From: Deltaproteobacteria bacterium
GTDB taxonomy: Bacteria; Desulfobacterota; Desulfobacteria; Desulfobacterales; Desulfosarcinaceae
Assembly (NCBI GenBank): GCA_020444075.1
Contig: JAHLLR010000001.1
Location: 111,782 to 175,781, forward strand
Reading direction: 5' to 3'
DNA: 64,000 nt
Positions 3,530-19,913 of the stretch are shown here, piece after piece. How positions within the stretch are numbered: the first letter of the stretch is position 1; the number at the start of each line of letters is the position of its first letter. The notes below the pieces were generated by a model. The model was not told where the DNA came from and searched no databases. It saw only the letters and a list, made by a program, of their open reading frames with translations. The position numbers were made by a program, and so were the translations under genes.

Positions 3530-4879
3530 ATGAGCGCGCTGACCATCGACGACATATTGTCCAACCGGAAAAACCTGGAACGGATTCTGGATAATATGAA
3601 AGATGGCATCATCGCCCATGACCTGAACCGGCGCATTTTTTACTTCAACAAGCGGGCCGAAGAGATTACCGGATATCGGCGGGAAGATGTCGTCGGCAAA
3701 GATTGCCATGAAGCCCTGGGCGGACCCTTTTGCGGCAGCCGATGTTCCTTTTGCGGCAACCAGCCCATCTTTCTCGATACCGCCGAGTATCCGATCAACA
3801 TCATCACCCGTGGGGGGGATCCGCGCCGGCTGGAAATGACGGCCACCATGATGCGCGATGAAAACGACAGGGAAGTCGGCGTGCTGGCAACCTTCCGGGA
3901 TGTCACCGACCTTTTCGAACTGAGAGTCAAAGCCAAAGCAATGACAGGATTTTCCAACATTATCGGCTGCGACAGCAAGATGATCGAGGTGTTCCGGCAG
4001 ATCAAGGACGTTTCCGGCTACGACTACCCGGTCCACATCTTCGGCGAAACCGGCACCGGCAAGGAACTGGTGGCCAATGCCATTCATAACGAAAGCCTGC
4101 GTGCCGGCAACCCGTTCGTCCCCATCAACTGCGGGGCACTGCCCGAGGGCCTGATTGAAAGCGAACTGTTCGGCCATGTGAAAGGGGCCTTTTCCGGGGC
4201 CATCCGTGACAAGAAGGGCCGATTCGAACTGGCCAACAAGGGCACCATCCTTCTGGATGAAATTGCCGAACTGCCCAAGCTGCTTCAAGTCAAATTGCTG
4301 CGGTTTCTCCAGGAAGGCACGTTCGAGAAGGTCGGTGGTGAAAAAACCGTGTCCGTAGATGTGCGCGTGGTCAGCGCCACCAACAAGGATCTCAAGAAAG
4401 AGGTCAAAAAGGGAAGCTTTCGGGAAGACCTGTTCTACCGTCTCAACGTCATCCCCATCCACATCCCGCCCATCCGCGAACGCAAATCCGACATCCCTCT
4501 GCTGGTGGACCATTTCCTGTCCAAGGCGCCGGTGTTCCACGAACAGCGGCCGGCCCGCATCTCCCAGGAAGCCCTGAACATGCTTATGGACTATGCCTGG
4601 CCGGGAAACGTGAGGGAGCTGCAAAACGCCGTTCAGTTCGCCATCGTTCGCTGCAAGGGAAAGGTGATCCGGCCCGAAGACCTGCCCCTGGAGCTGAAGG
4701 ATATCATATTCGAGAAGCCCAAACGGGGTCCGCAGCGAAAACTGGACACGGAGGCGGTCAAGGCGGCGCTGACGAAGACGGGCGGCAACAAGGCCCGGGC
4801 AGCTAAAGTCCTGGGCGTCGGTCGTGCCACCTTGTACCGGTTTTTGGGGGATCATCCCCAGGGACTGACTGGCGATTAA
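3530..4879 (+). CDS. PAS-sensing sigma54-dependent activator
   Basis: 449 residues. An N-terminal PAS domain (residues about 15-125) contains four cysteines at 59, 68, 72 and 75, a possible metal or Fe-S site. The AAA+ domain follows, with Walker A GETGTGKE, Walker [12 protein letters not shown] and the sigma54-contact loop GAFSGA at residues 219-224 (Ser for the usual Thr). A Fis-type helix-turn-helix ends the protein ([19 protein letters not shown]). There is no receiver domain, so sensing is probably direct through PAS. The start is taken at MSALTIDD; earlier in-frame codons back to 3413 do not look like protein. It probably controls the FmdE group or a distant sigma54 operon. Confidence 0.9.
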
Positions 4880-4915
4880 TTCCGCCGCGACCCTGAAAAC
4901 CTATCTGCTGCCATG

Positions 4916-4950
4916 AAAAAGGGGCTCGATATCGAGCCCCTTTTTTGGGT
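4916..4950. terminator. Bidirectional rho-independent terminator
   Basis: A perfect 10-bp palindrome (GGGGCTCGAT / ATCGAGCCCC) is flanked by A5 on the left and T6 on the right, so it reads as an intrinsic terminator on both strands. It lies between the convergent sigma54 activator and cooS genes and should end both transcripts. Confidence 0.92.
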
Positions 4951-4968
4951 TTCAAGTGGGATTGATTG

Positions 4969-6942
4969 TTAAGCGGCCTCGATGCTCCGCCGGTCGGACA
5001 TATCCATGAGCACGCGATCCCTGGCTTTGTCGATACCCAGGGCTTTGCGCTTCTTGTCGATGTGGGCGATCATCATCCTGGCCATCTCGTGGGGATCGGG
5101 GGTGAAGCCCCATTTGCCCATGCCCATCTCCTCCAGTCCCTCGAAGAGCAGTTTTTCGAACTCGGTGCCCTTGGTGACCGGGAAAGTGACGCCGAACACG
5201 GTGAAAACGCCGGAGGCCACAAAGTACTGGCCGATGGCAATGGCTTTTTCGCTCATGTATTCAGGCGCGGCACCCGCTACCGGCAGATCGGCGATGCTGT
5301 CGCCTAGGCCGCCGGTGCGCACCATTTCAGAACAGGCGATGAGGATGCGGGTGTTGTCCACGCAGGACCCCAGACCCAGTACGGGCGGCATACCCACGGT
5401 TTCGCATACCTCGCGCAAACCATCACCGGCGAGAACCGCGGCTTCGGGCGAGGTTAAACCGGCTTTGGCCAGCGCGATCTGTGAGCAACCCGTCTGAACC
5501 ACCAGCACGTCGTTCTTGATCAGTTCCTTGACCAGTTCCACATGCACATAATCCTGCTTAACACGGGGATTGGTGCAGCCCACCACACCGGCGACGCCAC
5601 GGATGCGTCCGTTGATGATGTTCTCGTTGAGCGGTGTGTAGGATGCACGGAAAGAACCGCCCAGCATGTAGTTGATGTACTCGTGGGAAAACCCATGGAC
5701 ACCGACTCCAACTTTCTTGGGGATCTCGATGGGAAACTTGCGGTTTTTGAACCGGCTGATGGCCTTGATCACGATTTCATCGGTACAGAGCTGAGGATTA
5801 TGCTCATCTAGCTCGATGTGTTTGGCGCCCTGCAGGTGACAACGCGGGTTGGTGGTGAACAACTCGGTTCCGTAGCACTCGGCCACCTTGACCAGGCCCT
5901 GCTGAATGCACTGGACGTCCACGGCCATGGCATCCACGGCACCGGTCACGATAATCGGCTCGGTGGATGAAAAGTTGCCCGCATGGGGAATGCCGTGACG
6001 CGACATCACCTCCGCACCGGAGCAGCACATGCCCACCAGGTTGATCCCCTTGGCACCGGCGGCTTTGGCAGAATCGATCAGAGAGGGGGCGTTGACCGAG
6101 GCCAGCATGGATTCAAACAGGTTGGGTTCATGGCCATGCACAATGATGTTGACCTGGTCCTCTTTGAGCACGCCCATGTTGACTTCAACACTGACCGGCG
6201 ACGGGGTGCCGAAGAGAATGTCGCTGATCTCGGTGGCGACCATGGATCCTCCCCAACCGTCAGCCAGGGCGGTGCGGCTGATCTGCTTGATAAGGTTGTT
6301 GGGATCCTGATCCATGCCGATGTGGGTTCGGCTCATCATTTCCATGATCTCACGCATGGCCCCACGGGGAACGATGCCGTGCTTGCGCCACATTTCCAGT
6401 GTCTTCGGCGGTACGCGCTTGGCAAAGGGGATTTCACCCTCCACCTGGGTGTAGGTCTTTTCCAACTCATGGTAAAGATCCATGGCAATGTCCTGAACAC
6501 TGCGGCCTTCAGTCTCGATCCCGATCTCCTTGGAGATCGATTCCAGTTTGTTGACATCCTTGATCCGGTAATCTTTGATCTTGCCCTGGACCACGTCCCG
6601 GAAGATGTCCAGCATGGCCATGCCGTGATCATTGTGGCACGCGGTACCGGTGGCCACCATGCGTCCGAAGTTACGGGCCTGGATGGTATCAATGGTAGCG
6701 CCGCAAACGCCGACCTTGCTATAGGGATCCTTGGGATTCATCCGGCAGGGCCCCATGAAGCAGTGTTTGCAACAGGCTGAGTCGGCGCCGATGGGGCAGG
6801 CCTTCATGCTGACCGCACGGTCAAAATGGGTCTCGACACCATCGCGCCGGGCCTTCTCCAGCATCTGCTGGGTGGCCTCACAGGTGGTAAGGTCCTTGAT
6901 TTCGAATTCTTTTTCCGTTTTAACGGTTTTCTTCTCGACCAT
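4969..6942 (-). CDS. cooS: Ni-dependent carbon monoxide dehydrogenase catalytic subunit
   Basis: 657 residues, the usual CooS length. The N-terminus has the cysteine-rich B/D-cluster region (CPIGADSACCKHCFMGPC, then VGVCGAT). The rest holds the Ni-Fe-S C-cluster segments GHEPNLFE, VGMCCSGAE, VVGCTNPRVKQDY, QTGCSQIALAKAGL and GLGSCVDNTR. It oxidises CO to CO2 (or the reverse) in the cytoplasm with ferredoxin-type partners. ATG 6942 has GGAGG eight bases upstream; the longer frame to 7050 lacks support. No acetyl-CoA synthase, cooF or cooC lies beside it, so it stands alone here, and electron acceptor and nickel-insertion partners must be elsewhere. Confidence 0.95.
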   Translation of the reverse strand: MVEKKTVKTEKEFEIKDLTTCEATQQMLEKARRDGVETHFDRAVSMKACPIGADSACCKHCFMGPCRMNPKDPYSKVGVCGATIDTIQARNFGRMVATGTACHNDHGMAMLDIFRDVVQGKIKDYRIKDVNKLESISKEIGIETEGRSVQDIAMDLYHELEKTYTQVEGEIPFAKRVPPKTLEMWRKHGIVPRGAMREIMEMMSRTHIGMDQDPNNLIKQISRTALADGWGGSMVATEISDILFGTPSPVSVEVNMGVLKEDQVNIIVHGHEPNLFESMLASVNAPSLIDSAKAAGAKGINLVGMCCSGAEVMSRHGIPHAGNFSSTEPIIVTGAVDAMAVDVQCIQQGLVKVAECYGTELFTTNPRCHLQGAKHIELDEHNPQLCTDEIVIKAISRFKNRKFPIEIPKKVGVGVHGFSHEYINYMLGGSFRASYTPLNENIINGRIRGVAGVVGCTNPRVKQDYVHVELVKELIKNDVLVVQTGCSQIALAKAGLTSPEAAVLAGDGLREVCETVGMPPVLGLGSCVDNTRILIACSEMVRTGGLGDSIADLPVAGAAPEYMSEKAIAIGQYFVASGVFTVFGVTFPVTKGTEFEKLLFEGLEEMGMGKWGFTPDPHEMARMMIAHIDKKRKALGIDKARDRVLMDMSDRRSIEAA

Positions 6943-7599: not shown

Positions 7600-7854
7600 A
7601 TGTCTGACAAACCGGTGAAGGTCTATTCGCTGAGCACATGCAGCCATTGCAAATCCACCAAGCGTCTATTGGACGAATGCACCATTAAATACGAATTCGT
7701 GGATGTCGATCTGTTGGATGGGGATGAACGCAAGGCTATTCTGGCCGATGTGAAAAAATTCAACCCCAGATGCTCATTTCCCACCGTTATCATCGGTGAC
7801 AATGTCATCGTCGGCTACAAGGAAGACAAAATCAGGGAGGCGCTGGGACTGTGA
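7600..7854 (+). CDS. Glutaredoxin family protein
   Basis: 84 residues with a thioredoxin fold. The active site is STCSHC (Cys14, Cys17) at the end of the first strand; the cis-proline motif FPTVIIGDN and the following GYKED match NrdH/glutaredoxin-like proteins. It overlaps the next gene by one base (TGATG), so the two are co-translated. The neighbour is a ferredoxin:thioredoxin reductase-like catalytic protein, which suggests this protein is its disulfide substrate. Confidence 0.88.
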   Translation: MSDKPVKVYSLSTCSHCKSTKRLLDECTIKYEFVDVDLLDGDERKAILADVKKFNPRCSFPTVIIGDNVIVGYKEDKIREALGL

Positions 7855-8186
7855 TGGATGCCGGTGAACTTTACCAAAAACTGAAAAAGGTCCAGGAGCC
7901 CAAAGGGTATTATTTCAGCAACAACCATGAACGGGTGATGGAACTGATCGAAGCGCTGCTCGTAAACAAGGACCGCTACGGCTACATGGTCTGCCCCTGC
8001 AGACTGGCCTCCGGCGACCGGGACAACGACCGGGACATCATCTGCCCCTGCGACTACCGGCAGCCCGATGTGGCCGAATTTGGGTCATGCTACTGCAACC
8101 TCTATGTTTCCAAAGAATGGAACGAAGGAAAAATTGAGCAGGAATATGTGCCTGAACGACGGCCGCCCGAAAAGATGTTTTTTTAA
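7854..8186 (+). CDS. Ferredoxin:thioredoxin reductase catalytic-chain-like protein
   Basis: 110 residues. Six cysteines sit as C47-P-C49, C64-P-C66 and C79-Y-C81, the three CxC motifs that hold the [4Fe-4S] cluster and redox disulfide of the FTR beta chain. Spacing here is CPC-x14-CPC-x12-CYC, different from the plant pattern x16/x8. FTR reduces thioredoxin-type disulfides with electrons from ferredoxin. No variable (alpha) chain is adjacent, as usual outside oxygenic phototrophs. ATG 7854 overlaps the stop of the glutaredoxin gene; a GTG at 7851 is a less likely start. Confidence 0.88.
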   Translation: MDAGELYQKLKKVQEPKGYYFSNNHERVMELIEALLVNKDRYGYMVCPCRLASGDRDNDRDIICPCDYRQPDVAEFGSCYCNLYVSKEWNEGKIEQEYVPERRPPEKMFF

Positions 8187-8228: not shown

Positions 8229-8891
8229 TCAACCCGGCTGTTTTTGAGTCAACAGCGCGCCTTTGATGAAGCCCATCATTCCACGAACGATTTTCTCGTC
8301 ATCCAAAAGCGCGTCGGGGCCAATGAATATTTTCATCCTCTCCCTGAAGTAATCGGAGGTGTATGAATACTGGAGCATGAGGATCAGGTTGTCGATGCAC
8401 AGCGCCGTGACGCGTGGGTCCAGCCGGGGGTCAATACGCCCCTGCGCCATTGCGCTGTCGATCAGTTTTTCATAGAACCGGGCCGTAATGGTTTCCATCT
8501 TCCCGGACAGTTTTCTGGACATGTGCGAGAGCCCCTCGGAGGTCAGATCCAGATAGATCTGGTGAAGTTCCGGAAACGCTCTGGCGTATCGCTGGGCCGC
8601 CCGCACCATCATCTCGATTCTCTGGAAAATATCTCCCGGCGAATGGTCGATGTCATCCAGCGCCTCTTCCAGAAGGCCGTGAGCCCGTTCGATGATCGTC
8701 AGGAAGAGGTCCTCCTTGGAACCAAAATACTTATACATGGCCCCGATGCTGATACCGGCCTTTTTGGCAATAACGTTGATATTGGCTCCGGGAAAGCCAT
8801 TGGCGGCAAATTCGGCCACCGCCGTATCCAGAATTCGCTGTTGTTTTTCCGCGGGAATCCGCGAAAACGTCTCTTTATGGTATTTTTCCAT
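8229..8891 (-). CDS. TetR family transcriptional regulator
   Basis: About 220 residues. The N-terminal helix-turn-helix reads RILDTAVAEFAANGFPGANINVIAKKAGISIGAMYKYFGSKE across residues 18-60 (typical TetR); the C-terminal part is a helical ligand domain with no recognisable ligand. The start is uncertain: ATG 8891 fits the family best, with in-frame ATG 8918 and GTG 8957 as alternatives, none with a clear ribosome site. It is divergent from the PLP/GMC/aldehyde dehydrogenase operon, and duplicated palindromic sites lie between them, so it probably represses that operon and itself. Confidence 0.85.
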   Translation of the reverse strand: MEKYHKETFSRIPAEKQQRILDTAVAEFAANGFPGANINVIAKKAGISIGAMYKYFGSKEDLFLTIIERAHGLLEEALDDIDHSPGDIFQRIEMMVRAAQRYARAFPELHQIYLDLTSEGLSHMSRKLSGKMETITARFYEKLIDSAMAQGRIDPRLDPRVTALCIDNLILMLQYSYTSDYFRERMKIFIGPDALLDDEKIVRGMMGFIKGALLTQKQPG

Positions 8892-9056
8892 GAATGGCAG
8901 ACAGTCCTGTTTACCCATTGGCAGCGCAACCGGAAACCCGGTTAAATAAATATCCACCCGATTGAAGATTCCCCTCGGCCATCCGATAGGAATCTTTACC
9001 CTAAAAATGAAAATCGATTTCCAGATCGCTCGCTATCGCGGATCAACGGTCTATTG

Positions 9057-9350: not shown

Positions 9351-10574
9351 ATGATGACCGGGAATCCCACCCGTGACTATCTTTTCTATCGCAACCTCAT
9401 CAAAGGCCAGCGCCTGCCTCTCGCATTGATCGACCTGGACTGCTTCGACGCCAACGTGGCCTATGTGGCCGGCACCCAGAAACGCAGCGGCAAAACCATC
9501 CGGGTGGCCTCGAAATCGATCCGCTGCCTGGATCTGATTCGACGGGTATTTGAAAAAGGCGGTAGTGCCTTCAAGGGAATTCTGGCCTTCACCGTCGAAG
9601 AAGGCGCATTCCTGGCCGACCACGGTTTCGATGACATTATCGTGGCCTACCCCACCGTCCAACCGTCTGACATGGATCTGATGGCGGAAGTCGCCCGCAA
9701 AGGAATCCGGATATCTCTGGTGGTCGACTCCCTGGAACACCTGCGCCGCCTCGCGGAGGCCGGTCAGCGATCGGGAGTGGTTCTGCAGGCCTGCCTGGAG
9801 ATCGACATGTCCTTCCGCCCTGTCGGCCGGGCCATCCATCTCGGGGTTCGACGAAGCCCGCTGCGCCAGGCCGACCAGGCCGTCCAACTGGCCCGCCGGG
9901 CAGCCGACCTTGAAGGCGTTAAGATCACGGCCGTCATGGGGTACGAGGCGCAGATTGCCTCGGTAAACGACAGTGTTCCCGGCCAGCGGCTGAAAAACGC
10001 CCTTTTGCGAAAGATGAAGCAGCGCTCCATGACGGAATTGATGGCGCGGCGGAAAGGCATCATTCATGCCCTCAAGTCATCGGGTTGCGCCATTGACATT
10101 GTCAACGGCGGCGGCAGTGGCAGCCTGAAGGCCACGGCCATGGACCGTTCCGTGACGGAAGTCACCGCCGGCTCGGCATTTTTTGCGCCCGGCCTGTTCC
10201 GGCATTTCCACGAAGTTACCTTTCAGCCGGCGGCCTTTTTCGCCCTTCAGGTAGTCCGTACGCCGGCGCCGGGAATGGTCACTTGCCTGGGCGGGGGCTA
10301 TGTGGCCTCCGGAGAGATCGGCCGGAATAAACTGCCTTGGCCGGTGATGCCTCCAGGACTGAGATATATCGGCATCGAAGGCGCCGGCGAGGTGCAGACG
10401 CCCTTGAAACTGCCCACCGGCACCCCGCCGCTCGACATCGGCGACCCTGTCTTCTTTCAGCACGCCAAAGCCGGCGAGCTGTGCGAGCGGTTCAATCATC
10501 TGCTCCTGATCAAAGGCAACAGGATTGCAGACAGGGTGAAGACCTATCGGGGACAGGGCGATGCCTTTCTTTGA
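9351..10574 (+). CDS. Alanine racemase/D-threonine aldolase-like PLP enzyme
   Basis: 407 residues. The fold-III PLP barrel begins with LALIDLDCFDANV; the Schiff-base lysine is expected in RVASKSIRC. The phosphate-binding and C-terminal parts (NGGGSGSLKAT, and a beta domain with EGAGEVQTPL) match the amino acid deaminase/aldolase branch rather than biosynthetic Alr. Likely acts on a D- or beta-hydroxy amino acid, perhaps by aldol cleavage or deamination; substrate unknown. AGGAGAG at 9341-9347 serves ATG 9351 or the next ATG at 9354. It is first in an operon with a GMC oxidoreductase and an aldehyde dehydrogenase, so an aldehyde product passed to the dehydrogenase is plausible. Confidence 0.82.
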   Translation: MMTGNPTRDYLFYRNLIKGQRLPLALIDLDCFDANVAYVAGTQKRSGKTIRVASKSIRCLDLIRRVFEKGGSAFKGILAFTVEEGAFLADHGFDDIIVAYPTVQPSDMDLMAEVARKGIRISLVVDSLEHLRRLAEAGQRSGVVLQACLEIDMSFRPVGRAIHLGVRRSPLRQADQAVQLARRAADLEGVKITAVMGYEAQIASVNDSVPGQRLKNALLRKMKQRSMTELMARRKGIIHALKSSGCAIDIVNGGGSGSLKATAMDRSVTEVTAGSAFFAPGLFRHFHEVTFQPAAFFALQVVRTPAPGMVTCLGGGYVASGEIGRNKLPWPVMPPGLRYIGIEGAGEVQTPLKLPTGTPPLDIGDPVFFQHAKAGELCERFNHLLLIKGNRIADRVKTYRGQGDAFL

Positions 10575-10613: not shown

Positions 10614-12026
10614 GTGACCCCCACTCACTCCCCTTTCTATGACTACATCCTTGTCGGCGCCGGGATCTCGGGCCCTTTTATCGCCCACGAACTGTGCCGG
10701 GCCGGCGCCAGATGCCTGATGGTCGAGGCGGGCAAACAATACACCCGCAGAACCTATCCCCGCAATGACCTGGACGGCACTGCCCAGCTCTACTGGTCAG
10801 GAGGACTGGAGCTGGGTACGGATGCCAGGCTGGTATTTTTGCGCCCCAAGGTGGTCGGCGGCGGATCCATAGTCAATCAGGCCCTGGTGGACCGGTTTGA
10901 CGAGGATGCCTTTGACAGCTGGCGCAGGGACTCGGGGGTCGACGACTTCAATGAGAAAGCCATGGCGCCCTGGTACGAAAAAGCCGAAGCGGAAATTGCC
11001 ATCCAGACCATCCCCAGCGAGTACCGCAACCGCAACGCAGATGTTTTCGAACAGGGCTTCCAGCGCCTGGGATACCAGCTGGCCCCTCTGCGGCGGGCCC
11101 AAAAGGATTGCAATTACGAGGCGGGCAATTGCTGCATCGAATGTCTCAACGGCTGCCGCATCGGCAGTAAACAGAGCACTCCGGAAACCGTTCTGAAAAA
11201 AGCGTTGGAACTGGGACTCGAGCTGCGGGCGGAAACCGAAGCCCTGAAAATCGATTCGTCAGCCAACGCGATCGGCGTCGCCTGCCAGACATCCGACGGC
11301 GGCGTCACCACCTACCGGGCCCGCAACCTGGTTCTGGCCTCCGGGGCCATCGGCAACAGCCGTTTACTGTTGAACTCCGGTTTGGGCAGACGACTGCCCG
11401 CCCTGGGCCATAATTTTTTCTGTCACCCTCAGTACATGAATTTCGGCGTCTACGACCAGCCGGTCATGTCTCACCTGGGCGCATTTCAGGCCTTCAAATC
11501 AGATGATGCGGGCTTCAGAAAAAACGGCTTCAAACTGGAGAACGTCTACGCCGGCCCGGCGGCCATCGCATTGCTCCTCAGCGGGTTCGGCCGGCAGCAT
11601 CACCGGACCATGGAGCGGCTGTCCCATTTTGCCTGCATCGAGGTGTGCACCCGGGATACCCAGCCCGGCCGCATCCGGGTCAACCGCAAGGGCAAGACAA
11701 TCATCGTCAAAGGCCAAAACAAGGAAGATCTGAGACGCTATCACAAAGGACTGGCCGTCATCGATGAAATCTTCAATGCCACCGGGGCTAAGGAGGTGAT
11801 CCACGGCACCATGGGCATCGGCCTGCACCTGATGGGCGGGTGCGGCATGGGAACCGACCCGAACCGCTCGGTCGTGGATCCCGATTTTCGCCTCCACGGG
11901 TTTAAAAACATCTTTTGTGCAGACTCCAGCATCTTCCCCAACGCTCCGGGCATCAACCCATCACTGACCATCATGGCCCTTTCCAAGAAGGCGGCCGCAC
12001 AATTGTTAAAGGATGCCAACCGATGA
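10614..12026 (+). CDS. GMC-type FAD-dependent oxidoreductase
   Basis: 470 residues. The FAD-binding Rossmann motif is DYILVGAGISGPFIAHELC (residues about 9-28), the GMC signature-like GGGSIVNQALVDRF follows, and the C-terminus has the conserved HLMGGCGMG and NAPGINPSLTIMALS segments. A cysteine cluster (CCIECLNGC) lies mid-protein. Family members oxidise alcohols with quinone, cytochrome or other acceptors. The start is GTG at 10614 with AGGAGG eight bases upstream. It overlaps the aldehyde dehydrogenase gene by ATGA, so an alcohol to aldehyde to acid sequence is likely for the operon. Confidence 0.88.
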   Translation: MTPTHSPFYDYILVGAGISGPFIAHELCRAGARCLMVEAGKQYTRRTYPRNDLDGTAQLYWSGGLELGTDARLVFLRPKVVGGGSIVNQALVDRFDEDAFDSWRRDSGVDDFNEKAMAPWYEKAEAEIAIQTIPSEYRNRNADVFEQGFQRLGYQLAPLRRAQKDCNYEAGNCCIECLNGCRIGSKQSTPETVLKKALELGLELRAETEALKIDSSANAIGVACQTSDGGVTTYRARNLVLASGAIGNSRLLLNSGLGRRLPALGHNFFCHPQYMNFGVYDQPVMSHLGAFQAFKSDDAGFRKNGFKLENVYAGPAAIALLLSGFGRQHHRTMERLSHFACIEVCTRDTQPGRIRVNRKGKTIIVKGQNKEDLRRYHKGLAVIDEIFNATGAKEVIHGTMGIGLHLMGGCGMGTDPNRSVVDPDFRLHGFKNIFCADSSIFPNAPGINPSLTIMALSKKAAAQLLKDANR

Positions 12027-13969
12027 AAATATCCAAATACTTCAACCCGCAGCAGCTTCGTGGACTGATCAGGGCGGGGGATGTGATCCTGCCCGGCACG
12101 GATGTCTCCCCGTCCTTTTCCCGCACCGGATGCATCGACCATGTGGACCGCATGGCGTCCACCCTGACCAGCGATGATTTAGGCGGATTGCGGCTGCTCC
12201 TGGGACTCTTCCGATTTTCCCCCAAATGGGTGATCCGGCTCCTGATGACCGCCTGCACGAAGAACTCACTGGCTCCCGGCTTTCTGGGCAGCGCCTTGAG
12301 AACCATCGACCTCGGCATCAGGGGCATGGTCATGAGCCTTTATTACTCCAACCTGACCGGCAGGGAATACCAGGGCAAAAAGGTATTCGACATCATCGGA
12401 TGGAACACACGGCTGGTCATGCCCCATGATGATTCACCGTCGGAAATCCCACAACCGGATATCGCTTACGAGAATCCCGAGGAATCGGATGTCGCAAGAA
12501 TATTTTCCCGCGCCCGGCAGGCCCAGCCTGAGATTCTGTCCTGGGGCGTGAAGAAGCGGCTGGAATTCATCAGCCGGCTGAAGGCGATCATCATCGCCCG
12601 TCAGGCCGACATTCTGGATCGCATCCAGGCGGATACCGGCAAATCCCGCACCGACGCCCTGACCGCCGAAATTTTCGGCACGCTGGACCATCTGGATTAT
12701 CTGGAGAAAAATGCCGTCAAGGTGCTCAAGGACCGGAAGGTGCCCACCCCCTTCGCCCTGATGGGCAAGCAGTCGAAAATCTACTTCGAGCCGATGGGCA
12801 CTACGCTGATCATCTCCCCCTGGAACTATCCCTTCTATCAGGCCATCGTTCCCATCACCCTTGCCTTCGCAGTGGGCAACGCGATCATTTACAAACCCTC
12901 CAGCGCCACCCCGCTGAAAGGGCTGGTGGAAGAACTGCTCGCGGAAACCGGTTTCGATCCCGCCTGGGTCCAGGTGGTATATGGTCCCGGGAAAGAACTG
13001 GGCCGGATGCTCATCGACCAGCGCCCGGACAAGATCTTCTTCATCGGCAGCCAGCGTGCCGGCCGCCAAATCATTACGCAGGCCGCGGAGCAGCTGATTC
13101 CGGTGGAACTGGAAATGGGGGGCAAAGATCCCATGATCGTCTTCGAGGACGCCAATCTGGAGCGGGCGGCAGCCGGGGCCATCTGGGGCGCCTTCACCAA
13201 TACCGGCCAGTCCTGCACCTCCGTGGAGAAGCTCTATGTCCAGGACAGCATCTACGATGCGTTCAAGGCCATCCTGGTGCGCGAAACACTGAAAATGACT
13301 CGGGGAACCGACAGCGACGGGGAGTCGGACATCGGCCCCATGACCACGAGCGCCCAGGTCAAAGTGATTGCCAGGCAGATCGAAGATGCCCGGAAAAAAG
13401 GGGCGACCCTGCTGACCGGCGGGGAGTGGGACGGCGCTTCGGCCGCCATCCCGCCGATCGTGGTGGAAGACAGCAGCGACGATATGCTGCTCAACCGGGA
13501 GGAAACCTTCGGCCCGGTCCTGCCCATCTTCGCTTTTCACGATGAAGCCGAAGCCGTCCGCCGGGCCAACAGCGATGACTTCGGCCTGTCCGCCAGCGTC
13601 TGGTCGGCGGATCGGCAGCGGGCGGACCGGGTGGCCCGGGCCATCGTGACGGGCAACGTCTCGATCAACAACGTCATGCTCACCGAAGGCAACCACGCCC
13701 TGCCTTTCGGCGGGTCCAAGAAAAGCGGCATCGGACGGTACAAAGGAGAATTCGGATTCTACTGTTTTTCCAACATCAAATCGATCCTCGTGGACAAAAA
13801 CAGCGGCAAGATGGAGGCAAACTGGTTCCCCTACAGCCGACGCAAATTTCAGCTGTTCACCGAGCTGACCACCAATATCTACTCACCGGGGATCTGGTCA
13901 TTCTTCAAGGCCGCCGTCAGCGGTCTCAAACTGGAGGGATACGTCAAGAAGCGGGGGAAGACGGATTAG
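12023..13969 (+). CDS. Aldehyde dehydrogenase with N-terminal small-subunit-like domain
   Basis: 648 residues. Residues about 150-630 are an NAD(P)-dependent aldehyde dehydrogenase: the SPWNYPFY motif, a Rossmann FIGSQRAGRQI region, ELEMGGKDP with the general-base Glu, and catalytic Cys398 in TGQSCTS. The first ~140 residues (GDVILPGTDVSPSF, then helices with LLLGLFRFSP) are extra; their plan resembles the gluconate 2-dehydrogenase subunit-3 type small subunit that partners GMC flavoproteins. That assignment is inference. A fused partner domain would tie the dehydrogenase physically to the overlapping GMC gene (ATGA overlap at 12023-12026). Confidence 0.85.
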   Translation: MKISKYFNPQQLRGLIRAGDVILPGTDVSPSFSRTGCIDHVDRMASTLTSDDLGGLRLLLGLFRFSPKWVIRLLMTACTKNSLAPGFLGSALRTIDLGIRGMVMSLYYSNLTGREYQGKKVFDIIGWNTRLVMPHDDSPSEIPQPDIAYENPEESDVARIFSRARQAQPEILSWGVKKRLEFISRLKAIIIARQADILDRIQADTGKSRTDALTAEIFGTLDHLDYLEKNAVKVLKDRKVPTPFALMGKQSKIYFEPMGTTLIISPWNYPFYQAIVPITLAFAVGNAIIYKPSSATPLKGLVEELLAETGFDPAWVQVVYGPGKELGRMLIDQRPDKIFFIGSQRAGRQIITQAAEQLIPVELEMGGKDPMIVFEDANLERAAAGAIWGAFTNTGQSCTSVEKLYVQDSIYDAFKAILVRETLKMTRGTDSDGESDIGPMTTSAQVKVIARQIEDARKKGATLLTGGEWDGASAAIPPIVVEDSSDDMLLNREETFGPVLPIFAFHDEAEAVRRANSDDFGLSASVWSADRQRADRVARAIVTGNVSINNVMLTEGNHALPFGGSKKSGIGRYKGEFGFYCFSNIKSILVDKNSGKMEANWFPYSRRKFQLFTELTTNIYSPGIWSFFKAAVSGLKLEGYVKKRGKTD

Positions 13970-14063: not shown

Positions 14064-15290
14064 TCAGGAAAATTTATCGTAGGCGATCATTTCCGGCTCA
14101 ACCCCCAGGCTGTCGAGCATGTCCTCCACGGCCTGGACCATCATGGGCGGCCCGCACAGGTAGTACTCGATTTCCGTGGGGTCCTTGTGTTTGGCAAGAT
14201 AGGTGTCGTGCAGGCGCTGATGGATATAGCCGGTCATCCCCTCCCAATGGTCCTCGGGCATGGGGTTGGACAGGGCCACATGGTAAGAGAAATTCGGGTA
14301 TCGTTCCGCCAGTCCCTTGAATTCGTCATCGAAGAACAGCTCCAGCTTGGAGCGGGCACCGTACCAGAATGACAGCCTGCGCTCGGCCTTCACCCGTTCC
14401 AGCTGGTCCAGGATCTGGCTGCGCAGAGGCGCCATGCCGGCGCCGCCACCCACGAAGCACATCTCTCTGTCGGTATCCTTGACGGCAAACTCGCCGAACG
14501 GCCCGCTCAGGGTCACCTTGTCCCCGGGTTCGAGGTCGAAGATATAGGTGGAACCGGTCCCCGGAGGCAGGTTTTTCGCTCCCGGCGGCGGTGTGGCGAT
14601 ACGGATGGTGAAACGCAGGCGGGTATCTTCCAACGGCGGATTGGCCAGCGAATAGGCCCGGAACACCGGCTCCAGATTCTTGCCCCGCAGCCCCCACAAA
14701 TTGAATCGATCCCAGTCGGGCCGGTAACGCTCAGCCACCCGAATCCGGAAATGCTCGAACGGAATTTCATATTCCGGGATATCGATCTGAATGTAGGCGC
14801 CGGCCGTGAAATTCAGATGTTCATCATCATCCAGTTCCAATATCAGGTCCTTGATGAAGGTGGCCACGTTCTCGTTGGACACCACCGTGGCCACATATTT
14901 TTTTACAGACAAGATCTCCTCGGGGATGCGGATCTTCAGGTCCTCCTTGACCTTCATCTGACAGGCCAGGCGGATGTTCCCTTTTCTCTCCTTGCGGGAC
15001 AGGTGGGCCAGTTCGGTGGGCAGCACCCCCCTTGATCCCTCCTCCACCTTGCACTTGCACATGCCGCACGCGCCGCCGCCGCCGCAGCCGGAGGGGATAA
15101 AGATGCCGTTGGCCGACAGGGCGGACAGGAGCGTCCTGCCCGACGGCGCATCGATGCTCTTTTCCTCGTCGTCGTTGATGATGATCCGGTTGCTCCCCTT
15201 CTGGACCACCTTGCCCTCGACAAAGAGCAGAAGCCCCACAAGGATGAGAATCACTGCAACAAAGACAGTGGTTGCGGTAAGATATATCAA
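14064..15290 (-). CDS. nqrF: Na+-translocating NADH:quinone oxidoreductase subunit F
   Basis: 408 residues. One N-terminal membrane helix (residues 2-25), a [2Fe-2S] ferredoxin domain with SGCGGGGACGMCKC and the fourth ligand in RLACQM, then the FAD/NADH reductase with RAYSLAN, GGGAGMAPLRS and CGPPMM. It takes electrons from NADH into the pump. The start is TTG at 15290 with AAGGAGAG just upstream. Last gene of the nqrABCDEF operon, which is transcribed leftward. Confidence 0.96.
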   Translation of the reverse strand: MIYLTATTVFVAVILILVGLLLFVEGKVVQKGSNRIIINDDEEKSIDAPSGRTLLSALSANGIFIPSGCGGGGACGMCKCKVEEGSRGVLPTELAHLSRKERKGNIRLACQMKVKEDLKIRIPEEILSVKKYVATVVSNENVATFIKDLILELDDDEHLNFTAGAYIQIDIPEYEIPFEHFRIRVAERYRPDWDRFNLWGLRGKNLEPVFRAYSLANPPLEDTRLRFTIRIATPPPGAKNLPPGTGSTYIFDLEPGDKVTLSGPFGEFAVKDTDREMCFVGGGAGMAPLRSQILDQLERVKAERRLSFWYGARSKLELFFDDEFKGLAERYPNFSYHVALSNPMPEDHWEGMTGYIHQRLHDTYLAKHKDPTEIEYYLCGPPMMVQAVEDMLDSLGVEPEMIAYDKFS

Positions 15291-15317
15291 CGGTCTCTCC
15301 TTCTTACAAACTGGCTC

Positions 15318-15935
15318 TCACAGGGTGATGCCCGAGAACAGCATGAATCCCATGGCCATCAGTCCGGTCATGATCATGGTGATGCCGAACCCTTCCAGCC
15401 CTTCAGGGACATTGGCGTAGCGCATCTTGATGCGGATGGCGGCCATGGAAACAATGGCCATGAGCCAGCCCACACCGGAGCCGAAACCAAAGACCACCGT
15501 TTCGATAAAGGTGTAATCGCGCTCCACCATAAAGAGCGACGCGCCTAAAATGGCACAGTTGACCGCAATCAGAGGCAGGAACACGCCCAATGCCATGTAA
15601 AGCGCCGGTGAATAGCGATCGATCACCATCTCGACCATCTGCACGATGGCGGCAATCACGGCGATGAAGGTGATAAATTTTAAAAAGCTCAAGTCGACGG
15701 CTTCCAGTCCGGCCCAGCGCAGTGCCCCGGGCGAAAGCAGGAAATGGAAGACCAGCCAGTTCACCGGGGCGGTGATGGAGAGCACAAACACCACGGCAAA
15801 CCCTAGCCCGATGGCCGTGTCCATGTTCTTGGATACCGCCACAAAGGAGCACATCCCCAGAAAATAGGAAAGCAGGATGTTGCCCACGAATACCGAATTG
15901 AGAAACAGGCCAAGCAGATTTTCCATGTCCGTCAT
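15318..15935 (-). CDS. nqrE: Na+-NQR subunit E
   Basis: 205 residues with six membrane helices, including the conserved FLGMCSF and [11 protein letters not shown] segments that carry the cysteines binding the intramembrane Fe site between NqrD and NqrE. Full length. Lies 26 bases after nqrD. Start at ATG 15935; an ATG three codons later is possible. Confidence 0.96.
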
Positions 15936-15961
15936 TCCCCGGCCGATATCGGCCGTTCAAA

Positions 15962-16579
15962 TTATCTTCTCATCAGACTTTTCTGCAGCCACACCAGCAA
16001 ACCGATAATGATGAATGCCGCCGGCGCCAGCTGCATGAAGCCCATGTTCATGTATCCATGGTCGTAAAAAACCTGCGGAACCACGGAAAATCCGAAGAGT
16101 TTGCCGGCACCGAAAAGCTCGCGGATAAAGGCTACGGTCACCAGCACCGATCCGTAGCCGGCGCCGTTTCCAAGGCCATCCATGAAGGATTTTACCGGGG
16201 GGTTGCCCAGCGCGTAGGTTTCCGCTCGCCCCATGACGATGCAGTTGGTAATGATCAGTCCCACAAACACGGAGAGCTGTTTGCTGATATCGTAAAAAAA
16301 CGCCCGCAGCACCTCGTCGGCGAGAATCACCAGCGAGGCAATCACTGAAAGTTCCACGATCATGCGCACGTTCCTGGGAATCACGTTGCGCATGGCGGAA
16401 ATGGTCAGGCTGGAAAAGGCCGTCACGAAGGTCATGGCCAGGCCCATGACGATAGCGGTATTCAGCTGCACCGTGACAGCCAGGGCCGAACAGATGCCCA
16501 GACTCTGAATGAACACGGGGTTGTTCTTGACCACCGGTTCGGAAAAGGCCTTGAATGTCGGCGATTGGGTCAATTTCAT
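15962..16579 (-). CDS. nqrD: Na+-NQR subunit D
   Basis: 205 residues, six membrane helices. Contains [10 protein letters not shown] and [12 protein letters not shown], the cysteine-bearing half-helices that face those of NqrE. Full length and canonical position in the operon. Confidence 0.96.
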
Positions 16580-16618
16580 GGCAATGGATCCATTTGTTTG
16601 TATAATCTCATGGGCTTA

Positions 16619-17329
16619 TCAGCTACCCGCCGGCAGGGCCACCCGGCCGGTGCGGAACCGTTGGGACAGTGGCTCGTATTCGGACAGGACGTCCTTCAAA
16701 CCGCCGGTTAAATATTTGCCGGTGAGCGTGGCGCCGGAGATGCCGTCCACATAGTTGGCCTGGCGGTCCTCAGGGATGGCGTCGGCCACCTTCCCTTTGG
16801 CGATACCCACAGCGGCAAATCTTCCAGTTCCATCCACGATCTGTTTGCCCACGAAGTTCTTTTGAAACCAGGGCTTTTCGATCTCGCCTCCTAGTCCGGG
16901 TGTCTCATTGTGGCTGTATACGGAAAATCCCGCCACGGTCTTGCCGTCGCTTTCGATGGCCATGTAGCCGTGGATCTTGCCCCACAGACCGCGGGAGTCC
17001 ACCGGCAGGATGTAGGCGGCCGGCTGGTTGTCCTTGACGTAGAAGCAGACCGGCAAGCCGTCGGGTCCCGAATCGTCCGCCACGATCCGGCCGGCGCCAT
17101 CCATGGCATAGCAGCGGATATTGTCCTTATAAAGCTGCTCGATGCGGGCAAGGGTCGGCGGCTTATCGGAATTAAGGAGTCCCACGGCCTTCAATATGTT
17201 TTTCTGCCGATCCACGGCCACATTACGCAATTTCCGATCCTTGAGGCCGGTGGCGGCACCGGTGAGCAGCAGGCTGCACCCCAGGGCAATCGCGACGGTA
17301 AAGGCGACGGATTTCAATTGGTCAGACAT
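16619..17329 (-). CDS. nqrC: Na+-NQR subunit C
   Basis: 236 residues with one N-terminal membrane helix. The covalent FMN attachment motif is DGISGATLT, with Thr201 as the expected phosphoester-linked residue. The FMN domain is outside the cytoplasmic membrane. It overlaps the nqrB stop by eight bases. The flavin transferase ApbE needed for attachment is not in the window. Confidence 0.95.
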   Translation of the reverse strand: MSDQLKSVAFTVAIALGCSLLLTGAATGLKDRKLRNVAVDRQKNILKAVGLLNSDKPPTLARIEQLYKDNIRCYAMDGAGRIVADDSGPDGLPVCFYVKDNQPAAYILPVDSRGLWGKIHGYMAIESDGKTVAGFSVYSHNETPGLGGEIEKPWFQKNFVGKQIVDGTGRFAAVGIAKGKVADAIPEDRQANYVDGISGATLTGKYLTGGLKDVLSEYEPLSQRFRTGRVALPAGS

Positions 17330-18518
17330 TGGGCACCCTTTTTCTCAACCGCGCCTTGATGACGAAATGGTCGATCAGCGGGGCAAAGAGGTTCATGAAC
17401 AAGATGGCCAGCATCACCCCTTCCGGATAAGCCGGGTTGAACACCCGGATCATCACGGTCAGCGCCCCGATGGCAAATCCGTAGATCCACCGGGAGAGGT
17501 TCATACCCGGCGCCGATACCGGATCGGTTGCCATGTAAACCATGCCGAAGGCAAAGCCGCCCATGACCAGGTGCCAGGCCGGATGCACGGAGAACATGCG
17601 GGCCGCCTCTCCGCCCGAGGAAAGATTGATCAGATACCCCGGATACGCCACGGCCAGCACCCCAAGGACGCCACCCACCATGATCCGGTAGTTGCCCACG
17701 CCGGTCAGCACCAGAAAAATGGCTCCCAGCAGGATCATCAGGGCCGATGTTTCACCCACGCTGCCCGGGAGGTTGCCCACGAACAGCCGCTGGAATGAAT
17801 AGCCGGCATCGGTGAGAATGCGGGCCACCGACCCTCCGGAGGCCGCCAGGGGCGCCAGGGCCAGGGGGGTGGCCGCCGTCAGCGCATCCACGGCCTGCTG
17901 ACCGCTCTGCTGAACCACGGTCCAGACCCGGTCACCGGACATATTGGCCGGGTAGGCGAAAAAAAGGAAAGCCCGGCCGGTCAGCGCCGGGTTGAGGATA
18001 TTCCTTCCTGTGCCGCCGAAGATCTCCTTACCGATCACCACGCCGAAAGAGATCCCCGCAGCCACTTGCCACAAGGGGGTGGTGGGCGGCAGGGTCATGG
18101 GAAAAAGCAGGCCGGTCACCAAAAAGCCCTCACTGATATGGTGCCCCCGCACCGAGGCGAAGAGAAGTTCCCAGAATAGTCCGACGGCATAAGAAACCAT
18201 GAGCATGGGCAGCACCACCCCCGCCCCCCGCATCATCACCGGGACCATCCCCAGATCCAGCCCCGATGCCAGTCCGGACTGGTAACCGGTATTGTAAATG
18301 CCATAAAAAAAGGGCGGCATCAGGGAAATGATCACGAAAGTCATGAACCGCTTGAGGTCCAGGCTGTCCCGCACGTGGGCGTCGGCCGTGGTGGTCAGCG
18401 CCGGGGCAAAGGCGACCGTTTCGATGGCATCGAAAAGGGGGTGCAGTCTTTCCAGCCGTCCACCGGATTCAAAGTACGGCCGGGTGGTGTTAAATAGACG
18501 TTTGAGGGCTTTCATCAT
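17322..18518 (-). CDS. nqrB: Na+-NQR subunit B
   Basis: 398 residues with about ten membrane helices. The FMN attachment site reads DALTAATPLA with Thr217; the usual SGAT is here TAAT, a mild variant. The family subunit forms the sodium channel and binds riboflavin and quinone. Slightly shorter at the N-terminus than the Vibrio protein (about 412). Confidence 0.95.
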   Translation of the reverse strand: MMKALKRLFNTTRPYFESGGRLERLHPLFDAIETVAFAPALTTTADAHVRDSLDLKRFMTFVIISLMPPFFYGIYNTGYQSGLASGLDLGMVPVMMRGAGVVLPMLMVSYAVGLFWELLFASVRGHHISEGFLVTGLLFPMTLPPTTPLWQVAAGISFGVVIGKEIFGGTGRNILNPALTGRAFLFFAYPANMSGDRVWTVVQQSGQQAVDALTAATPLALAPLAASGGSVARILTDAGYSFQRLFVGNLPGSVGETSALMILLGAIFLVLTGVGNYRIMVGGVLGVLAVAYPGYLINLSSGGEAARMFSVHPAWHLVMGGFAFGMVYMATDPVSAPGMNLSRWIYGFAIGALTVMIRVFNPAYPEGVMLAILFMNLFAPLIDHFVIKARLRKRVPNV

Positions 18519-18569
18519 TTTCCATTCTCTGGCAGCAGGTCGTCATCGCCCGTATCAGGGTGGCGGGGA

Positions 18570-19913
18570 TCAGGCGATCTCCTTGTAATATCGGGCTTTG
18601 GCCGATCGAAACACTTCCCGCAGCTGGATCTTCGACGGACAGGCATAGGTGCACAGCCCGCATTCGGCGCAGTCGAGCAGGCCATGGGCCAGCGCTTCTT
18701 CCACCTCGTCGGCCACCAGGCATTTCATGGTGAACTGGGGCAGGATGTCCACCGGGCAGATCGTGGCGCAGGTGCCGCAGTTGACACAGGCCCGGACCTC
18801 CCCGTGCTGCCCGCAATCCATGGGAAAGGGCTTGCGATGAAAGGCGGACAGAAATGCCGTGGAATAGCTGGGTTTGCGGGAGCCCGGCCGGATGAAGCCG
18901 AAGGGTTCTTCCCGGTCACCGTCGTCGATCAGATTCAGGGCGTTTTGGTAAAACCCCATGAAGCTGTCGGGATTGCCGGCAAACCCGGTGAACACGCCCC
19001 CCACGATATATCGGGCGGCCGGTTTGCCGGCAGGACCATTGCCGCATAGGTGCCGCAAAGGCACACCCGTCCGGGTGGATACATGCCTGGCGGCGGGTGC
19101 GAGACTCCCGCCCACCGTCATGATGCGTTGCACGGGATAGTGGCCGGTCCGAAAAAAGTCACCCAGTAGAATCACATCCTGGCCGTCAATGAACCAGGTC
19201 CGGTTCTGCTCCGGTCCGGTCCGGGTCCGGTACAGCTGCACACTGGGGTTGCCCGACGGATAACAGCCCGTAAAACGATAAATGACGGACGGGTCGGGCA
19301 AAGATGAGACGGCCGCTTCGTCACCGGTCAGGTTGATCACCACCCGGTCGCAGAGTTTGTTGAGCAAATCAATGCCGAGGCTGAACCGGTCTTCCCTGTC
19401 TTTAAGGTATACCACCGGGTCCGGCCCGAAGGGCTCGTCGTCCCCCAGGCGCACGATGATGGCCGGTGGGACCGTGTCGGGGTCGGCCAGGTCCATGAAG
19501 GGAAGTGCTTTGAAAAACGGCCACATGCCGCCGGCAAGCAGGGTTTCCACCAGTGCCTGCCGCGGCATTTCATCCAGCTGCTCGACTGGCGGCACATCAA
19601 AGGTTTCACACGGTTCATGCTTGTCCAACGTGATCATGATGTGCCGGATAATCCGCCGCGGACCGAAATCGATGCGCGTCACCTGCCCCCCGCCGGGAGA
19701 CAGGAAACGGATGCGGGTATTGCGTTTATCTTCGAAAAGGGGGGTGCCGACGGCCACCGGATCGCCTTCTTCAACCAGCAGCCGGGGTTTGACATAAGGG
19801 ATGTGTTCGGGAACCATGCCCACATGGCGGGGCGTATCCAGCAGGTGCAGTTGGCGTTCGGGGGCTCCGGCAATTCGCAGCGAAAACCCCTTTTTCAGAT
19901 GTAAGGCATTCAT
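18570..19913 (-). CDS. nqrA: Na+-NQR subunit A with two 4Fe-4S motifs
   Basis: 447 residues. The N-terminal and barrel-like regions follow NqrA (GFSLRIAGAP, VGMVPEHIPYVKP, VGGSLAPAARHVSTRTG). The C-terminus carries two complete CxxCxxCxxxCP motifs, Cys376/379/382/386 and Cys415/418/421/425, as in RnfC. From family knowledge the Vibrio NqrA lacks these ligands, so this form may hold two extra clusters and accept electrons on the cytoplasmic side. First gene of the operon; downstream order B-C-D-E-F is canonical. Confidence 0.93.
   Translation of the reverse strand: MNALHLKKGFSLRIAGAPERQLHLLDTPRHVGMVPEHIPYVKPRLLVEEGDPVAVGTPLFEDKRNTRIRFLSPGGGQVTRIDFGPRRIIRHIMITLDKHEPCETFDVPPVEQLDEMPRQALVETLLAGGMWPFFKALPFMDLADPDTVPPAIIVRLGDDEPFGPDPVVYLKDREDRFSLGIDLLNKLCDRVVINLTGDEAAVSSLPDPSVIYRFTGCYPSGNPSVQLYRTRTGPEQNRTWFIDGQDVILLGDFFRTGHYPVQRIMTVGGSLAPAARHVSTRTGVPLRHLCGNGPAGKPAARYIVGGVFTGFAGNPDSFMGFYQNALNLIDDGDREEPFGFIRPGSRKPSYSTAFLSAFHRKPFPMDCGQHGEVRACVNCGTCATICPVDILPQFTMKCLVADEVEEALAHGLLDCAECGLCTYACPSKIQLREVFRSAKARYYKEIA

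Follow-up and report, generated by a model that had tools for sequence, protein, structure and literature searches.

Why should an aldehyde dehydrogenase (ALDH) carry a large additional segment at its N-terminus, and why should its gene overlap that of a GMC oxidoreductase? The question is raised by a stretch of 64,000 nucleotides from a Deltaproteobacteria bacterium of the Desulfosarcinaceae (assembly GCA_020444075.1, contig JAHLLR010000001.1, positions 111,782 to 175,781), hereafter the window, in which a single gene at 12023-13969 encodes such a fusion. The analysis reported here identifies the additional segment as a distant relative of the PF13618 proteins and of the small subunits of iron-sulphur (Fe-S) GMC dehydrogenases, a conclusion that we regard as well supported, and finds it next to a GMC gene whether or not it is fused to an ALDH. 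It also leads us to suggest that the fusion may tether a GMC dehydrogenase to an ALDH in the degradation of sphingoid bases.

The fusion gene and its conservation

The fusion and its upstream neighbour comprise the following features; pLDDT is the predicted local distance difference test score.

12023-13969, + strand: ALDH fusion gene, a single open frame of 648 residues plus stop
12023..12412, + strand: N-terminal all-helical domain (residues 1-130), supported by a profile-profile match to PF13618 proteins, a structural model and separate-gene relatives
12413..12478, + strand: poorly ordered linker (residues 131-152; pLDDT below 50 at residues 130-144)
12479..13786, + strand: aldehyde dehydrogenase domain (residues 153-588; PF00171, E 7.8e-120)
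13787..13966, + strand: C-terminal extension (residues 589-648), with predicted helices at 606-619 and 625-647
10614..12026, + strand: GMC oxidoreductase (PF00732/PF05199), the proposed Fe-S flavoprotein partner
11109..11156, + strand: GMC motif C166-x7-C174-x2-C177-x3-C181, of invariant cysteines, a proposed Fe-S site

Pfam recognizes a single domain in the fusion protein, Aldedh (PF00171), with 401 bits against a cut-off of 23, and since this match begins at residue 153 some 150 residues lie ahead of the ALDH. An earlier reading of the locus from its letters and open frames (the sequence-only reading) had described about 140 extra N-terminal residues before a normal ALDH and an overlap of four bases with the GMC gene. 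Both descriptions hold: the whole is one frame, and the GMC stop and the fusion start share the bases ATGA. Cys398, Glu364 and Asn268, which we take to be the ALDH catalytic residues, are the same in all 36 fusion proteins. Among the matches listed, the nearest NCBIfam models are those of succinic-semialdehyde and betaine-aldehyde dehydrogenases, none of them at or above its cut-off, and Foldseek returned only aldehyde dehydrogenases, again among the matches listed, when queried with the model of the whole fusion. The C-terminal tail is kept in relatives, and its role may possibly be one of lipid or membrane contact.

Relatives of the fusion protein were collected by searching a single genome from each species, which yielded 167, and the best 80 of these were kept. 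L001 and L002, short copies that represent the window and a close relative, were left out of the gene lists, and the clustering of neighbouring genes covered 49 of the 80 loci (L051-L054 and L056-L082 being left out). Apart from the window, 44 related loci keep the extra domain, fused or separate, and its residues P24, P67, G101 and Y107 do not vary in any of the 54 copies aligned; with such conservation, it can hardly be a chance extension.

Kinship of the domain with GMC small subunits

The sequence-only reading had likened the extra residues to subunit 3 of gluconate 2-dehydrogenase (Gluconate_2-dh3, PF13618), to be verified by a profile search. In that search the window domain has no Pfam match at E ≤1, PF13618 included, and weak PF13618 matches occur in 5 of the 54 copies (best E 0.016), none reaching the gathering cut-off of 23.4 bits and none better than the match to an unrelated family. 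No credible PDB match was obtained in a direct search with residues 1-147 or with the domain profile. Since Pfam alone gave no membership, the domain was compared, profile against profile (hhalign), with 21 proteins that pass the PF13618 cut-off. The score was 37.4 (probability 83, E 8.8e-6, 106 columns), as against maxima of 17.6 and 16.3 for column shuffles of either alignment (60 each), 14.6 for reversed alignments and 23.8 for 18 windows taken from the alignments of the ALDH, the GMC and a neighbouring pyridoxal 5'-phosphate (PLP) enzyme. The likeness to subunit 3 therefore survives as a distant relationship (37.4 against controls of at most 23.8), and membership of PF13618 as defined by its cut-off does not.

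The AlphaFold2 model of the domain is all-helical, with a mean pLDDT of 89.9. When compared with 107 chains by VIA-align, its top match is the fructose dehydrogenase chain 8jej_B (84 residues, root-mean-square deviation 3.1) at a Z of 5.3, a value that is weak alone and within the range of common helical arrangements; the next chain scores 2.5. This top match belongs to the class predicted beforehand, the Fe-S GMC dehydrogenases, and from the size of the chain (136 residues) we read it as the small subunit. A GMC-like frame adjoins 20 of the 21 fetched PF13618 loci, and the two PF13618 proteins most similar to the domain (L114 and L112) adjoin the two GMCs most similar to the window type. A domain that behaves like the small subunit of a GMC protein is supported by its occurrence as a gene of its own directly after that of the GMC, by its constant place next to a GMC gene and by the type of that GMC, all described below. 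At its start in the window (MKISKYFNPQQL), inspection by eye shows no twin-arginine export signal of the kind that the known hitchhiker subunits carry, and a strongly hydrophobic segment of 19 residues is likewise lacking, no signal predictor having been run.

The proposed GMC partner and its cysteine motif

The window GMC matches GMC_oxred_N (1e-37) and GMC_oxred_C (4e-20) in Pfam, and among solved structures its profile comes closest to the fructose dehydrogenase large subunit (1.4e-23) and to the flavin adenine dinucleotide (FAD) glucose dehydrogenase (1.5e-22). In the Burkholderia glucose dehydrogenase, according to PMC6719666, Cys212, Cys218 and Cys222 serve as ligands of the 3Fe-4S cluster, next to which the small gamma subunit is packed. 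Residues C174, C177 and C181 of the window GMC align with these three ligands and, like the fourth cysteine of the motif, C166, are conserved without exception in the 42 GMCs compared. The alignment supports placing the window GMC in the Fe-S branch of the fructose and glucose dehydrogenases, which is known to need a small subunit. The idea that the domain is the partner of a GMC flavoprotein, already present in the sequence-only reading, is strengthened both by this placement and by the constant proximity of a GMC gene.

Fused and separate forms

Among the best 80 of the 167 relatives, domain and ALDH form one open reading frame in 35 loci, and in nine others (L033, L042, L043, L044, L046, L047, L049, L050 and L055) the domain is separate from the ALDH, as a gene of its own directly after that of the GMC. 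Wherever the domain is detected by BLAST, in 43 loci, a GMC is present beside it; a binomial figure for this adjacency was set aside, the four genomes behind it being related. To avoid the bias of an ALDH-containing query, 290 Bdellovibrionota genomes were searched with the domain profile alone. The domain was found in 27 of them and a GMC adjoins it in every case; it is fused to the ALDH in 15, separate with an ALDH adjacent in three and without ALDH in the short locus in nine, being thus a separate gene in 12 of the 27. Homologues in which the domain stands alone beside a GMC, whose existence the sequence-only reading had left to be checked, are hence found in both surveys. Since a GMC adjoins the domain in 27 of 27 genomes, while the ALDH is optional, the domain is tied to the GMC, and it appears that the ALDH was recruited onto a domain-GMC pair.

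No single-chain fusion of GMC and domain was found among the loci read. A candidate GMC-domain-ALDH triple fusion (G950, a frame of 1141 codons) was rejected, as its GMC is a separate overlapping reading frame and the long frame looks like an artefact of high G+C content. In one metagenome assembly the GMC gene is split across two frames (L009:5363-6865), through either a frameshift or a sequencing error. The spread of the domain is patchy: it occurs in 2 of 297 genomes of the window's phylum, in 2 of 30 of its family and, in the phylum to which the L055 genome belongs, in 1 of 296, the seed itself. The closest named genome is that of Desulfosarcina alkanivorans.

The PLP enzyme and the ceramidase neighbours

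Two further components, a PLP gene and a link to ceramidases, were absent from the sequence-only reading and point to the likely substrate. The first lies upstream of the GMC gene:

9351..10574, + strand: PLP enzyme of the D-threonine-aldolase / 3-hydroxy-D-aspartate aldolase superfamily (PF01168, alanine-racemase-type domain)

Of 45 loci, 30 have a PLP gene close to the GMC. A search at E ≤1e-30 through 274 genomes from the class to which the L032 genome belongs detected it in the seed genome alone. The best solved relatives of the window enzyme (7yqa, 4v15 and 6qkb) comprise a 3-hydroxy-D-aspartate aldolase, D-threonine aldolases and a D-threo-3-hydroxyaspartate dehydratase, enzymes that act on 3-hydroxy-2-amino acids of D configuration. 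With D-threonine aldolase and the 3-hydroxy-D-aspartate aldolase BhcC it shares the superfamily and the PLP lysine, K55 (Lys59 in AxDTA), which is present in 30 of 30 sequences. In D-threonine aldolase the catalytic base is His193, according to PMC4401734, which also calls the function of this branch of the superfamily largely unknown. Unlike that enzyme, the window-type PLP enzymes have at the aligned position (204) Ser in 13 cases and Gly in 17, out of 30. The place of the metal ligands His347 and Asp349 reads H371-A-K373 by eye, the HMMER alignments ending before it; His371 is found in 19 of 30 sequences and Lys373 in all 30, and Glu376 is also invariant in the window enzyme and its 29 relatives. 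The metal site of D-threonine aldolase has apparently been replaced, and the family is possibly a metal-independent branch. Given the loss of His193 and, apparently, of the metal site, the PLP step could consist in a dehydration or in some other conversion of D-amino acids. A PLP gene split over two frames is seen in a metagenome assembly (L020:8953-10147; frameshift or sequencing error).

Ceramidases release sphingoid bases. Neighbour clustering and Pfam place a neutral ceramidase (PF04734) in 9 of the 49 clustered loci (L013, L017, L032, L034, L037, L040, L042, L043 and L050), which come from two lineages, Chitinimonas-type betaproteobacteria and Bdellovibrionota, and display three arrangements; the ceramidase gene of L042 overlaps that of the ALDH. 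Within the Bdellovibrionota, PF04734 is found in 13 of the 27 genomes with the domain and in 36 of the 263 without it (Fisher p 7e-5, uncorrected for ancestry). Restricting the count to strong ceramidases above a line of 115 bits gives 10/27 versus 19/263 (p 6e-5), but this line was set after the scores had been seen and the figure for all matches is used instead. In L014 the GMC is preceded by a gene (4335-5387) for a sphingomyelinase-like protein, with 37 bits to TIGR03395, far under the cut-off of 248, and sphingomyelin phosphodiesterase 2 as its best PDB match (1.7e-7).

Other neighbours were also observed. Genes of the Exo_endo_phos type adjoin the cluster at L013:4925-5839, L017:8909-9826 and L014:4335-5387. 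At L168:9839-11305 (- strand) an amidase-signature gene stands directly before the GMC, where other genomes hold the ceramidase, and its product might remove the N-acyl chain in its place. The ceramidase gene of L050 (5233-6971) is split over two frames in a metagenome assembly, by frameshift or sequencing error.

Proposed role and alternative explanations

We propose, with a confidence that we would put at about an even chance, that an Fe-S GMC dehydrogenase and a small-subunit domain tethered to an ALDH form a complex that acts on sphingoid bases together with the PLP enzyme. Residues 1-130 would bind the product of the GMC gene immediately upstream, and their fusion to the ALDH would tether the two enzymes. 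The GMC would oxidize a primary alcohol to an aldehyde, its electrons passing through FAD and the Fe-S cluster to an acceptor, and the tethered ALDH would convert the aldehyde into an acid; channelling from one to the other, suggested in the sequence-only reading, would be plausible. The most likely substrate would be a sphingoid base (a 2-amino-1,3-diol), an identity that we infer from relatives. By our own stereochemical reasoning, oxidation of (2S,3R) sphinganine at C1 swaps the priorities at C2, and the acid would therefore be (2R,3R), that is, D-configured. A (2R,3R)-2-amino-3-hydroxy fatty acid would in turn be of the kind on which the D-threonine-aldolase superfamily acts, and the PLP enzyme would cleave this D-type 2-amino-3-hydroxy acid into glycine and a fatty aldehyde. 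Sphingoid-base catabolism is accordingly our leading candidate for the role of the cluster. More tentatively, and at somewhat less than even chances, the cluster might constitute a second bacterial route for sphingoid bases, with parts unlike those of Pseudomonas aeruginosa SphBC, in which the reactive amino-aldehyde is retained within the GMC-ALDH complex and an aldolase relative with a rebuilt active site yields glycine and fatty aldehyde.

Several observations weigh against this proposal. The search that detected ceramidases in 49 Bdellovibrionota genomes found none in the window's own genome, none lies beside the Desulfobacterales loci, none was found in 40 of the 49 clustered loci, and the remaining neighbours are mostly unremarkable. 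Among the genes examined on either side of the cluster (PLP, TetR and Nqr) no gene for a cytochrome or another acceptor was recognized, the genome as a whole not having been searched for a cytochrome. The catalytic base and apparently the metal site of the nearest aldolases are replaced in the PLP enzyme. No ALDH was found in the widened flanks of eight of the nine Bdellovibrionota loci without one (L174 being left out, and contig ends limiting some), which indicates that the ALDH step is not universal. Lastly, the domain itself has neither a Pfam match nor, when submitted alone, a significant match in Foldseek, and its VIA-align score is a weak one.

The lack of a ceramidase in the window's genome and beside the Desulfobacterales loci would suit a complex of the same build that takes a long-chain alcohol or another amino-alcohol to the acid, with the PLP gene as an accessory or unrelated and the ceramidases only as markers of lipid-degradation islands. 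Desulfosarcina, the genus of the nearest named genome, is known for hydrocarbon degradation, and in L046 the domain is followed by a gene for an acyl-activating (AMP-binding) protein. Nonetheless, a plain route for fatty alcohols needs no PLP enzyme, and the PLP gene accompanies the GMC in two thirds of the loci and is kept in 5 of the 8 wider Bdellovibrionota loci without a nearby ALDH, so that we consider this explanation rather unlikely. These same five loci, in which domain, GMC and PLP gene occur together, agree with direct cleavage by the PLP enzyme of the amino-aldehyde made by the GMC, the ALDH oxidizing the released long-chain aldehyde downstream, and the authors of PMC3900636 proposed that an aldol is formed by oxidation and then cleaved by an aldolase. 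The fusion of the GMC partner domain to the ALDH would favour, on the other hand, a hand-over of the GMC's own product. Known members of the superfamily, moreover, act on amino acids, and direct cleavage seems to us less likely still. The lack of Pfam and significant Foldseek matches could also mean that the domain is an unrelated helical part of the ALDH, serving in oligomerisation or membrane contact, and that the GMC is near it through operon linkage only. This we regard as very improbable, for the domain occurs without an ALDH and yet adjoins a GMC in all 27 genomes, its match to the PF13618 profile exceeds every control, and the GMC is of a class that has small subunits.

Relation to known systems

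The proposed complex resembles the gamma-alpha pair of the Burkholderia cepacia FAD glucose dehydrogenase and the Gluconobacter fructose dehydrogenase in joining a GMC with three Fe-S cysteines to a helical partner of about 120-130 residues. It differs from them in that an ALDH is attached to the partner domain, in which no export signal is seen, in the fourth invariant cysteine of the GMC and in the remoteness of the sequence similarity; nor was a gene for a cytochrome c subunit, multi-haem in enzymes of this type, identified among the flanking genes. With the PF13618 family the domain shares profile-level similarity and a GMC neighbour, whereas the window domain and all 54 copies lie under the Pfam cut-off. 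The architecture can thus be seen as a variant of the Fe-S GMC dehydrogenase theme. The small subunits of Fe-S GMC enzymes are viewed as export escorts in PMC6719666, and one with no export signal detected that is joined to the enzyme of the following pathway step would point to another use for them, the tethering of successive oxidations.

In P. aeruginosa, as related in PMC3900636, sphBCD and cerN supply an oxidoreductase and a PLP aldolase-like enzyme, co-regulated with a ceramidase, for a proposed pathway. Loss of sphBC leads to accumulation of sphingosine, the direct oxidation product of which is given as unidentified in PMC11893366. In terms of gene roles rather than sequences, our cluster is similar, an oxidoreductase and a PLP aldolase-like enzyme being associated with a neutral ceramidase there and in some relatives of the window locus. 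SphC is nevertheless Tat-exported, linked to flavin mononucleotide and paired with a cytochrome c, unlike the GMC without detected signal, the small-subunit domain and the ALDH found here. No description of the fusion or of a GMC-based sphingosine pathway was found among the papers listed in searches of open-licence PubMed Central. If the inferred substrate is correct, a branch of the D-threonine-aldolase superfamily would acquire a physiological role, and Bdellovibrionota, relatives of Chitinimonas and sulfate reducers would harbour a testable pathway of sphingolipid degradation.

Neighbouring genes

Upstream of the GMC gene come first the PLP gene and then a divergent gene for a regulator:

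8229..8957, - strand: TetR-family regulator, divergent (PF00440, E 3e-14)

A TetR gene lies at the equivalent place in L003 and L004, and its product is a probable local regulator. Convergent to the cluster, at 14064-19913 (- strand), is a complete gene set for a Na+-translocating NADH:quinone reductase in the order nqrA-F, of which all six subunits are recovered with NCBIfam, subunit A scoring below its cut-off. Beyond the TetR gene, at 7851-8186 (+ strand), a short ferredoxin:thioredoxin-reductase-like protein is encoded, which matches an NCBIfam double-selenoprotein family with 58.9 bits, the cut-off being 160, and in which the frame reads cysteines.

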